From: Gemmatimonadaceae bacterium
GTDB taxonomy: Bacteria > Gemmatimonadota > Gemmatimonadetes > Gemmatimonadales > Gemmatimonadaceae
Reading direction: 5' to 3'
DNA: 64,000 nucleotides
NCBI GenBank assembly: GCA_025929535.1
Contig: JAICLZ010000007.1
Location: 20,374-84,373, forward strand
In this document: piece by piece, positions 29,466 to 32,882 of the stretch
How the letters are laid out: the number at the start of each line of letters is the position of its first letter
Numbering within the stretch: the first letter of the stretch is position 1
The notes under the pieces: model-generated
The model's input: only the letters and a program-made list of their open reading frames with translations
What the model was told of the DNA's origin: nothing
The model's database searches: none
Position numbers and translations under genes: made by a program

Positions 29466-29786
29466 TCATTTGGGTAGCTTGTTGTCGCCCGGTGGGGCGA
29501 CATAGTGATACTGCTCGACCGTTCGCCCGCCGATGAGGTGCTCGTGCAGAATCTGTTCGGCTCCGGTCACATCGACGTGCGCGTACCATATGGCTTCGGG
29601 GTACACGGCAACCATCGGCCCGTTGCCGCACTGTCCCATGCATCCCGCGTGATTGACTCGAACGATACCCTGCAGCCCGGCTGCAGCGGCGCCCTTCTTG
29701 AGTGCGGCAAATACCAGATCGCTTCCCTGTTCCGGACACGTTCCGCCCGACGTACACACGAACACATGATGCTTATACTGTCCCAT
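29466..29786 (-). CDS. thioredoxin-like [2Fe-2S] ferredoxin
   Basis: The ATG at 29786 gives 106 residues starting MGQYKHHVFVCTSGG. Four Cys sit in the pattern of thioredoxin-fold 2Fe-2S ferredoxins: VCTSGGTCPEQG (two) and HAGCMGQCGNGP (two). The segment VAVYPEAIWYAHVD is the following strand. Such proteins carry electrons or sense iron in the cytoplasm; a partner enzyme is not encoded beside it. In-frame extension to 29861 is possible but unsupported by homology-like sequence. Confidence 0.85.
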   Translation of the reverse strand: MGQYKHHVFVCTSGGTCPEQGSDLVFAALKKGAAAAGLQGIVRVNHAGCMGQCGNGPMVAVYPEAIWYAHVDVTGAEQILHEHLIGGRTVEQYHYVAPPGDNKLPK

Positions 29787-29893
29787 GCGGGAAAGGTAGT
29801 GGCCAACGCTCATTGAATGGACGAAATCCTCCTTGACACACACATTGGTGATGAAGCGCACAGCTGAAGCGAGCCAATCAGCGGGGGAGACAC

Positions 29894-30402: not shown

Positions 30403-30431
30403 TTGACAGCGCCCGCAATTCGTCCTAGTTC
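30403..30431 (+). promoter_or_regulatory. candidate promoter of the sulfur operon
   Basis: A consensus -35 TTGACA (30403-30408) is followed after exactly 17 bp by TAGTTC (30426-30431), a weak -10. A start about seven bases on would fall at or beside the ATG at 30439, making the short Cys-containing ORF leaderless. The hairpin AAGCC/GGCTT at 30390-30404 overlaps the -35. The -10 is poor, so this is tentative. Confidence 0.45.
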
Positions 30432-30438
30432 TTCGCCC

Positions 30439-30513
30439 ATGAGCATTGCCCGGATGCGCCCATGTTGTCCTCATCCCGCCGACCGGCCGGGGGAGCGTGC
30501 GCGTCTCGTGTGA
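30439..30513 (+). CDS. putative Cys-rich leader peptide (attenuator ORF)
   Basis: A 24-codon ORF starts at ATG 30439 and ends at TGA 30511-30513. An internal in-frame ATG at 30454 gives 19 residues, MRPCCPHPADRPGERARLV. Codons 9 and 10 (30463-30468) are both TGT. It lies between a promoter-like sequence and a terminator-like hairpin, upstream of a sulfurtransferase-OsmC-cysteine synthase operon. Leaderless short ORFs with consecutive Cys codons act as cysteine-responsive attenuators of sulfur genes in mycobacteria, including upstream of a CysA2-type sulfurtransferase. The assignment here is by analogy. Confidence 0.6.
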   Translation: MSIARMRPCCPHPADRPGERARLV

Positions 30514-30543
30514 TCTCTTCGCACGATTGCGATTGACACCCTC

Positions 30544-30574
30544 ACGGCCGCCGATTGGCGGCCGTCGTCTTTTG
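30544..30574 (+). terminator. terminator-like hairpin in the sulfur operon leader (attenuator)
   Basis: ACGGCCGCC (30544-30552) and GGCGGCCGT (30557-30565) form a perfect 9-bp stem with a GATT loop, followed three bases later by a T-run (TCTTTT). It is downstream of the Cys ORF and 77 bp upstream of the sulfurtransferase ATG. CGGCCG at 30484-30489, just past the Cys codons, can pair with the same motif in the left arm (30545-30550), giving a possible antiterminator. Confidence 0.65.
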
Positions 30575-30650
30575 TGCTTTGCACTCGTGCGAAACCGCGG
30601 CGAGCGCTCGGGCGTTCAACAGTGCGTACACCCAGAACAGGGAGAAAGAC

Positions 30651-31538
30651 ATGGCCACGACTATCGCAGCAGACACCGACAAGGCAATCGCCGGCAAGGG
30701 ATACGTACATCCCGAGGTGCTGGTCTCCACCGAGTGGCTGGCGCAGAACCTCGACAACCCGAAGGTTCGCATCATCGAGAGCGACGAGGACGTGCTTCTC
30801 TACGACCTGGGCCACATCAGGAACGCGCAGAAGGTCGACTGGCATCTGGACCTGAACGACGATGTGATGCGCGACTACGTGAGCCCCGAGCAGTTCGAGA
30901 AGCTGCTTCGCTCGAAAGGCATAGACGAGTCGATGACGGTCGTGTTCTACGGGGACAAGAACAACTGGTGGGCGACGTACGCCTTCTGGGTGTTCAAGCT
31001 CTTCGGCTTCGAGAACGCGCGCGTGCTCGACGGCGGCCGGATCAAGTGGGAACAGGAAGGTGGCCCGTTCGTCACGGAGGTTCCCAGGTTCCCACCCACG
31101 AGCTACAAGGCGCCCAAGCGCAACGACGCGAAGATCCGCGCGTTTCGCGAGGAGGCGCTCGCGCAGTCGAACGCGAAGAAGCCGCTCGTCGATGTCCGCT
31201 CGCCGGACGAATTCTCCGGCAAGAAGACGCACATGCCCGAGTATCCGCAGGAAGGCGTGCTGCGCGGAGGGCACATCCCGGGCGCGAAGAACGTTCCGTG
31301 GGGACGTGCGGCGAACACCGACGGCACGTTCAAGAGCGCCGATGAGCTGCGTGCGATCTACGAAAAGGAGATCGGCCTGAAGAGGGACGATGACGTGATT
31401 GCGTACTGCCGCATCGGCGAGCGCTCGTCGCACAGCTGGTTCGCGCTCACCTACCTCCTGGGCTATCCCAGGGTTCGGAACTACGACGGGAGCTGGACGG
31501 AGTGGGGAAATTCGGTGCGTCTCCCCATCGAGAAATGA
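30651..31538 (+). CDS. thiosulfate sulfurtransferase (rhodanese, CysA2/SseA-like)
   Basis: The ATG at 30651 has a GGGAG box at a good distance and gives 295 residues. Two rhodanese domains are present. The first (about 15-135) is catalytically silent: [18 protein letters not shown] has the fold but no active Cys. The second carries Cys253 in [14 protein letters not shown], the CRIGER loop typical of the actinobacterial CysA2-type enzymes. It transfers sulfane sulfur from thiosulfate or a similar donor to an acceptor in the cytoplasm. It heads an operon with OsmC (4-bp overlap) and cysteine synthase, indicating a role in sulfur assimilation. Confidence 0.92.
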
Positions 31539-31969
31539 GCGACGCGCCACCGATGGGAGTGAAGCCGCCGCAGCGTATCGTTGCGGTGTGGAAGGGTGGG
31601 GAGGAGTTCGACACGAGCAAGCCGGGCGGCCCCGTGGCCCGCATCGACGGGCACGGGGTGAGCGGGCAAGGTCCGGTGGACACGCTGCTCAGCGCGCTCG
31701 GAACCTGCTCCGCAATGGACGTGGTGGGAATCCTGAAGAAGCAGCGCACGCCGGCATCGTCGCTCGAGGTCGAGGTGATCGGCACGCGCGAGGACTCGAG
31801 TCCGCGCCGGCTGAAGCACGCGCTCCTGCGTTTTCGGATCGCCGGCGCCGGGATCGAGCGGGAGCAGGCGCTCAAGGCGATCCAGCTGTCCGTGACGAAG
31901 TACTGCTCGGTGCGCGATTCGCTCGACCCGCGGATCCCGGTCGAGTGGGAGCTCGAGTTGTCGACGTAG
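31535..31969 (+). CDS. OsmC family peroxiredoxin-like protein
   Basis: The ATG overlaps the sulfurtransferase stop (ATGA), giving 144 residues. The two redox Cys of OsmC/Ohr-type proteins are present: Cys58 in [13 protein letters not shown] and Cys124 in [11 protein letters not shown]. Such proteins reduce organic hydroperoxides or handle persulfides/thiols; substrate is not determinable. Its place between a sulfurtransferase and cysteine synthase makes a role in thiol or persulfide handling attractive, though this is inference. Confidence 0.88.
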
Positions 31970-31976
31970 GAGCGAC

Positions 31977-32882
31977 GTGATCGATGCAGCGATAGGACAC
32001 ACTCCGCTCGTCCGGCTCGAGAAGGTGGTCGAGCCCGGGATGGCGGAGGTGTGGATGAAGATGGAAGGAATGAATCCGGGCGGGTCGATCAAGGACCGCA
32101 CGGCGCTCGGGATGATCACGGACGCCGAGCAGCGGGGCGTGCTCCGTCCGGGCGGAACGATCGTCGAGCCGACGTCGGGCAACACCGGCATCGGGCTGGC
32201 GCAGGTGGCCGCTGCACGCGGATACAGGCTCATTCTGTGTCTGCCGTCGCAGATGAGCGAGGAGCGCAAGCGCACGCTGATCGCGTACGGCGCGCAGCTC
32301 GTGCTCACGGATCCCGAGCGCCGCATGCTCGCGGCGATCGAGGAGGCGGAGCGCATTCGCGACAGAACGGGCGCGTGGATGCCGAACCAGTTCTCGAATC
32401 CGGCGAATCCGGCGATTCACTATCGGCTCACCGGCCCCGAGCTGTGGGAGCAGATGGAAGGGCGCATCGATGCATTCGTGTACGGCTCGGGCACGGGCGG
32501 CACGATCAGCGGCGTGGGCCGATACATCAAGGAACGCTCGCCCGGCACGGCGGTGATCTCGGTAGAGCCCGCGCGATCTCCGGTGCTGAGCGGCGGCGAG
32601 CGCGGCACGCACAAATTTCAGGGAATGGGGCCCGGTTTCGTGCCGGACAACTTCGACTGGTCCGTAGTGGATCGCGTCGAGACCGCGTGGGAAGAAGACG
32701 CCTTCCCGCTCGCACGCCGGCTCGCGAGCGAAGAGGGGCTGTTCGTGGGCATGTCCACCGGGGCGATCGTGTGGGTGGCGCTGAAGATCGCGCGCGAGCT
32801 CGGCGCCGGAAAGCGCGTCGCGTGCATCTCACCCGATTCCGGCGCGCGCTATCTGACTACGGCGCTCTTCGCGACGGACTGA
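31977..32882 (+). CDS. cysteine synthase (CysK/CysM family)
   Basis: This 301-residue PLP enzyme starts at a GTG with GGAG upstream, 7 bp after osmC. The PLP Lys lies in NPGGSIKDRTA (about 39), the substrate loop is PTSGNTGIGLA, and the phosphate-binding glycine loop is GSGTGGTISGVG. It condenses O-acetylserine (or O-phosphoserine) with sulfide or another sulfur donor to form cysteine. Linkage to a rhodanese and an upstream Cys-codon leader supports a biosynthetic rather than catabolic role. The exact sulfur donor cannot be told from sequence; no CysO/MoaD-like carrier is adjacent. Confidence 0.9.
   Translation: MIDAAIGHTPLVRLEKVVEPGMAEVWMKMEGMNPGGSIKDRTALGMITDAEQRGVLRPGGTIVEPTSGNTGIGLAQVAAARGYRLILCLPSQMSEERKRTLIAYGAQLVLTDPERRMLAAIEEAERIRDRTGAWMPNQFSNPANPAIHYRLTGPELWEQMEGRIDAFVYGSGTGGTISGVGRYIKERSPGTAVISVEPARSPVLSGGERGTHKFQGMGPGFVPDNFDWSVVDRVETAWEEDAFPLARRLASEEGLFVGMSTGAIVWVALKIARELGAGKRVACISPDSGARYLTTALFATD

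Follow-up and report, generated by a model that had tools for sequence, protein, structure and literature searches.

A predicted Cys-codon attenuator upstream of a sulfurtransferase-OsmC-cysteine synthase operon, and similar leaders in Gemmatimonadota

In the genome of a Gemmatimonadaceae bacterium, an operon for a sulfurtransferase, an OsmC-family protein and a cysteine synthase is preceded by a terminator-like hairpin and, further upstream, by a short open reading frame in which two Cys codons stand side by side. Do these elements form an attenuator that responds to cysteine, as an initial annotation of the window (the whole stretch of 64,000 nucleotides analyzed here) had proposed? Classical attenuators of the trp and his type combine regulatory codons for the end product, a terminator and an antiterminator that competes with it. 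For cysteine, leaderless polycysteine sORFs of mycobacteria are described as cysteine-responsive attenuators (Canestrari et al. 2020, Mol Microbiol 114:93), cys leader peptides with runs of Cys codons have been predicted before cys operons in Actinobacteria (Seliverstov et al. 2005, PMC1262725), and a predicted Cys-codon attenuator with an intrinsic terminator, uORFC-8-2, precedes cysS in Rhodobacterales (PMC8632094, 2021). Because uORFC-8-2 had been predicted earlier, the initial annotation's statement that it knew of no such case outside Actinomycetota fails for predictions. In the literature searched, no leader-peptide attenuator was described in Gemmatimonadota.

The window leader and its operon

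The features of the leader, read from the sequence, and of the operon are as follows.

30403..30408, + strand: -35 hexamer TTGACA, identical in a genus mate (G003)
30426..30431, + strand: weak -10 box TAGTTC, after a 17-nt spacer
30439..30513, + strand: 24-codon leader uORF MSIARMRPCCPHPADRPGERARLV, with the same frame and length in G003
30463..30468, + strand: adjacent Cys codons TGT TGT, the candidate regulatory codons; such clusters recur in relatives
30484..30489, + strand: CGGCCG, candidate antiterminator arm (element 2), 16-21 nt past the last Cys codon
30544..30565, + strand: predicted intrinsic-terminator hairpin of 9 bp (sequence, terminator scan and folding)
30566..30574, + strand: T-rich terminator tail, the hairpin being followed by CGTCTTTTG
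30651..31538, + strand: rhodanese-family sulfurtransferase, first gene of the operon (PF00581; PDB relatives 1uar, 3hzu and 3hwi)
31535..31969, + strand: OsmC-family protein (PF02566), overlapping the stop codon of the sulfurtransferase
31977..32882, + strand: cysteine synthase of the CysK type (PF00291; NCBIfam TIGR01139 above cut-off)

When the sequence was re-read, every feature of the initial annotation was present where it had been placed. The ATG of the uORF, at 30439, lies 7 nt downstream of the -10 box, and its stop codon is 33 nt ahead of the terminator. In alignment A1, whose 19 rows were each trimmed to start with the -35 hexamer, every row has TTGAC. A sigma-70 promoter scan found no promoter at the leader and did not list TAGTTC, because this -10 box is too weak. 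The leader hairpin is the strongest of the four terminator-like sites between 29400 and 33000, where shuffles lead one to expect 1.5, and the minimum-energy structure of the leader contains the terminator helix (z -2.93). No Rfam covariance model, those for T-box and SAM riboswitches among them, matched near its gathering score between 29800 and 31000.

The initial annotation had likened the leader to a mycobacterial one upstream of a CysA2-type sulfurtransferase. The sulfurtransferase of the window scores higher against the SseA-named PDB chain 3hzu (361 bits) than against 3hwi (317 bits), which we take to be mycobacterial CysA2. The genome that holds the window (3.95 Mb in 145 contigs, 93% complete) has no match to PF01507 at E <= 0.001 and none to PF01077 at E <= 1e-25, and assimilatory sulfate reduction therefore seems to be absent from this 93% complete assembly. 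If so, the sulfurtransferase-cysteine synthase operon could be a main route to cysteine from reduced sulfur. A gene for a thioredoxin-like 2Fe-2S ferredoxin lies near the operon on the minus strand (29466-29861), and by eye a similar sequence seems to occur upstream of the sulfurtransferase in some relatives (L010, L014).

Leaders recur upstream of orthologous sulfurtransferases

The initial annotation had held that Cys codons conserved in an otherwise drifting leader would speak for attenuation. With distant paralogs counted, 53 of 60 near genomes hold a relative of the sulfurtransferase (E <= 0.001); at E <= 1e-60, 147 of 298 genomes from the phylum do. We read 148 ortholog loci, of which the 143 with at least 300 nt upstream were used for automatic calling (L061, L081, L085, L121 and L138 had less). 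The caller looked for a terminator and for an ORF, 10-60 codons long and starting with ATG or GTG, in which two Cys codons fall within a span of four. Cys-cluster ORFs were present in 41 of the 143 upstream regions (17.6 in dinucleotide shuffles), terminators in 29 (6.0 in shuffles), and both together in 22, one of them (L071) a miscall, against a shuffle mean of 0.6. At L092 the caller picked the wrong ORF, and a better leader exists there. Six leaders were added by eye: L072, L084 and L091 have Cys clusters, and in L031, L033 and L067 the Cys codons are spaced. The final tally for the 148 loci is 24 leaders with clustered Cys codons and a terminator, plus three with spaced Cys codons. They occur in five Gemmatimonadota families (f1, f2, f3, f6 and f7); although the leader is missing from most orthologs, across these families the Cys codons and the terminator are kept while the peptide drifts, as the initial annotation had hoped to see.

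Within the genus, two of the five genomes have the leader, namely that of the window and G003. G002 has the promoter-like site and a hairpin, whose T-tail fails the automatic caller, and lacks the uORF, while both uORF and hairpin are missing from the ortholog locus in G001 and G004. At two sulfurtransferase loci (L004 and L071), a promoter-like site directly abuts a terminator-like hairpin with no Cys uORF in between, an apparent loss of the sensor. In 41 genomes the pattern TTGAC..TGYTGY..GGCCG was no more frequent than its reverse; the gaps that it allowed excluded even the window leader, and the result therefore says nothing either way.

Anatomy of the leaders

Among 25 curated leaders, the window's included, peptide sequences vary freely, as CCPHPADRPGER, CTCPRLSGRRPG and CAACPCTMPHLPG show. 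No peptide motif beyond the Cys residues is kept in the leaders: CC, CTC, CLC, CAACPC and long Cys tracts all occur. The spacing of the parts is more regular. The start codon lies 6-8 nt past the best-scoring -10 box in 16 of the 25 (17 when L024 is read from an in-frame ATG); L033 has no promoter-like site, and L051 has no start codon after its own. Since initiation about 7 nt after the -10 box would put the start codon at the 5' end of the transcript, the uORF is predicted to be leaderless. The distance from the first Cys codon of the anchored cluster to the stop codon is 45-63 nt in 22 of the 25, and that from the stop codon to the terminator is 20-49 nt in all of them. In the leaders, Cys is encoded by TGT 48 times and by TGC 30 times; the open frames downstream at these loci, some of them perhaps spurious, use the two codons 47 and 151 times. 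Two uORFs are extremely rich in Cys (L050, 706-888; L399, 291-467), with stretches such as CRACCCVCGCAC and CACACACMCACM.

Pairing between element 2 and the terminator

The initial annotation had suggested that CGGCCG pairs with the left arm of the terminator and so acts as an antiterminator. In the window taken alone this pairing is weak: it is a 6-bp palindrome with z -0.84, no better than in shuffles, and the window's element 2 ranks only 22nd of 35 segments for its own terminator arm. Over the 25 leaders, pairing between the terminator left arm and a segment about 10-40 nt past the last Cys codon has a mean z of -1.27. We also compared the pairing of each element 2 with its own arm and with arms swapped between leaders, using 20000 permutations and leaving out L084. 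The own arm was the better partner in the set of 34 leaders, where no permutation of the 20000 scored as low. The number of permutations as low was 13 for the 26 Gemmatimonadota sulfurtransferase leaders, 214 for the 17 leaders that remain after removal of close relatives, and 57 for 17 leaders with diverse arms. The proposed pairing thus holds up across the leader set, but not for the window on its own.

Folding was computed with a ribosome placed at different points. Over the 25 leaders, with L007 included in a wrong frame, the mean pairing between upstream RNA and the terminator left arm was 0.78 with the ribosome at the Cys codons and 0.66 with it at the stop codon (p 0.017), and 0.73 with no ribosome (stall against none, p 0.12). 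The corresponding values for the window are 0.73, 0.72 and 0.72. In such models, static folding separates the ribosome states weakly. Local hairpins near the Cys codons were no stronger than in shuffles (mean z -0.07 over the same 25 leaders, again with L007 in the wrong frame), although they are visible in a few leaders such as L090 (z -3.33). A protector hairpin (1:2) is not supported as a general feature of the leaders.

Leaders before other sulfur genes

If these leaders respond to cysteine, do they also precede other genes for cysteine supply? Both strands of 383 loci were scanned for a strict pattern: at least five of six matches to TTGACA, 16-19 nt, TANNNN, 4-9 nt, a start codon, a Cys cluster, and a terminator within 140 nt. 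The loci had mostly been fetched with sulfur genes as bait, so the scan is no survey of whole genomes. It returned 59 leaderless-type uORFs: 26 (19 distinct) had both a Cys cluster and a terminator, all upstream of sulfur genes, five had Cys codons only, two had a terminator only, and 26 had neither. Three shuffled sets gave no uORF with both. Four of the five Cys-only uORFs precede a sulfurtransferase (L084, L091, L195 and L196), and the fifth (L238) has no link to a sulfur gene.

Of the 19 distinct leaders, 15 precede the sulfurtransferase. The others stand upstream of a sulfate ABC transporter (L328/L380), TauE-CysD-CysN-CysH (L290/L381), CysH-sulfite reductase-CbiX (L291/L382) and a lone cysteine synthase (L270/L383). 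In G116 and G057, further baits brought up Cys leaders ahead of CysH-sulfite reductase genes. When 422 loci were put through a relaxed scan, it returned 31 rows, some of them duplicates from a place that had been fetched twice; shuffles gave 0.5. Ten rows were new (L269, L294, L323, the minus strand of L328, L385, L393, L394, L398, L399 and L408); placed relative to the bait, each lies upstream of it and on its strand, the bait being a cysteine synthase, CysH or sulfite reductase gene. Three relaxed-scan calls (L071+, L334 and L384) were set aside as miscalls or doubtful. Genome G160 has two Cys leaders on opposite strands (L328/L380), one before the sulfate ABC transporter and the other upstream of CysH, on the CysH strand. 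Neither scan found a convincing Cys leader at cysS in 30 loci of relatives (L330-L359; one doubtful ORF, in L334) or at cysteine-synthase-like genes outside the operon (L360-L379).

Leaders in other phyla

A set of 80 named loci, 78 of them usable (L202 and L232 were left out), was searched with a loose caller. Ten of the 78 had both features, against 0.75 in shuffles, three of them from Gemmatimonadota (L190, L203 and L217). Judging by their titles, 25 of the 80 loci presumably belong to Chloroflexota, and among these a Cys-cluster ORF and a terminator were called together in five, compared with 0.3 in shuffles. We accepted four Chloroflexota leaders upstream of the sulfurtransferase (L195, L196, L199 and L259). 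The loose caller also passed L211 (Chloroflexota), L239 (Verrucomicrobia) and L245 (Micromonosporaceae), which look weak by eye and were not counted. Of the four, only L195 and L196 (the latter with TTGACA-18-TATATT-7-ATG) also satisfy the promoter and uORF part of the strict scan, and all four fail the more demanding terminator criteria of the strict and relaxed scans. In two of them the pairing arms differ from CGGCCG, being GTTGACT / AGTCAAC in L259 and GCGGTGAGT / ACTCACCGC in L195. Upstream of the sulfurtransferase in L208 (Anaerolineales) there is a strong promoter, TTGACA-18-TATAGT, with a short uORF, MGLVCLLDPFFWQLFI, that has one Cys, and no terminator was called.

Discussion

The element is best read as a predicted ribosome-mediated transcription attenuator with Cys codons. 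This reading is well supported by comparison: the leaders recur, the Cys codons, spacing and arm pairing are kept, and other sulfur genes and Chloroflexota loci carry such leaders; the initial annotation's interpretation gains in particular from Cys codons conserved in a drifting peptide and from leaders before other cysteine-supply operons. The window leader has a short ORF with codons for the amino acid of its operon, which holds a cysteine synthase, and a predicted intrinsic terminator between this ORF and the first gene; an antiterminator competing for the left arm of the terminator is seen set-wide and is weak for the window alone. We consider it very likely that, when cysteinyl-tRNA runs low, the leader lets more transcription pass into the sulfurtransferase-OsmC-cysteine synthase operon, and the attenuator is probably one member of a cysteine regulon.

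How might it work? Transcription would start at or next to the ATG of the uORF, so ribosomes would load on a leaderless 5' end. When cysteine is short, a ribosome would be held at the Cys codons; with CGGCCG left uncovered, the emerging left arm of the terminator would pair with it, and RNA polymerase would read on. When cysteine is plentiful, the ribosome would cross CGGCCG to the stop codon and occupy element 2, and the terminator would form. Because hairpins around the Cys codons do not exceed shuffles in strength and the folding states differ little, we propose that the off-state rests on a ribosome covering element 2 and not on a protector hairpin.

This arrangement shares with trp- and his-type attenuators the regulatory codons for the end product, the terminator and the competing antiterminator, and differs in that the uORF runs past the antiterminator element, no general protector hairpin is supported, and the start is predicted to be leaderless. 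Like the polycysteine sORFs of mycobacteria, which exert cysteine-dependent control over operons that include cysteine biosynthetic genes, the leaders have a short, here predicted leaderless, ORF with contiguous Cys codons, a likeness drawn from sequence; unlike them, they belong to another phylum and have a predicted intrinsic terminator and a matching antiterminator element after the uORF (Canestrari et al. 2020). The leaders of PMC1262725 are likewise short ORFs that contain runs of Cys codons and are placed ahead of cys operons; as described there they have no conserved terminator hairpin, whereas terminator hairpins are present here. The architecture of uORFC-8-2 is similar, with a conserved AUG, tandem Cys codons (usually codons 14 and 15), an intrinsic terminator and predicted ribosome-mediated attenuation. 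It is described only before cysS, in contrast to the leaders studied here, which precede sulfur assimilation and cysteine synthase genes, the sulfurtransferase operon included; and it has two stems, the first of which holds the Cys codons, while no such stem exceeds shuffles here (PMC8632094).

Could the Cys uORF instead work mainly on translation or on Rho-dependent polarity, with the hairpin secondary? The uORF resembles the leaderless ones of mycobacteria, for which such action has been proposed: the Cys leaders of Mycobacterium are described as lacking terminators, with Rho suggested (PMC1262725), and translation attenuation is spoken of in M. smegmatis (PMC13236596). The weak switching in our folding models also fits. 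Yet T-tailed GC hairpins accompany the uORFs: where the strict scan found a leaderless-type uORF followed by a terminator, the uORF had a Cys cluster in 26 of 28 cases. Element 2 also fits its own terminator arm, and we regard this explanation as unlikely.

Still less probable, in our view, is that the nascent Cys-rich peptide and not the Cys codons is the sensor, for instance by binding metal or by reacting with persulfide, oxidants or electrophiles. Cys-rich upstream peptides that sense do exist, copper-responsive ones among them, and OsmC and a rhodanese in one operon would suit a response to sulfane sulfur or oxidants; but nothing of the peptide is kept beyond its Cys residues, and targets that include sulfate uptake and reduction and cysteine synthase fit cysteine supply. 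Nor do we give much credence to the idea, the least probable of these, that the terminator merely ends transcription of the upstream gene and that the uORF is there by chance. A DinB-family gene on the same strand does end 41 nt upstream of the uORF start, and some relatives lack both uORF and hairpin. Against this, the combination of uORF and terminator is far above shuffles, is found before other sulfur operons too, and in the window and 15 of the 24 other curated leaders comes with a promoter-like site whose -10 box lies 6-8 nt ahead of the start codon.

Returning to attenuation at the Cys codons, we lean towards a broader possibility. Gemmatimonadota and some Chloroflexota may control a whole cysteine-starvation regulon through leaderless Cys-codon uORFs and intrinsic terminators, with the uORF and no protein regulator as the sensor; such a regulon would span sulfate uptake, activation and reduction, the sulfurtransferase and cysteine synthase. 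The leaderless Cys-uORF would thus be a device common to Actinomycetota, Gemmatimonadota and Chloroflexota, joined to a terminator in two of these phyla. This raises the question of how switching occurs in leaders whose uORF crosses the antiterminator and for which a protector hairpin has no general support. With this finding, Gemmatimonadota would join the groups that use leader-peptide attenuators, and leaderless Cys-codon sensors would prove not to be confined to mycobacteria. It would also give Gemmatimonadota a readable cysteine-starvation regulon, further members of which should be easily found by their simple sequence signature.
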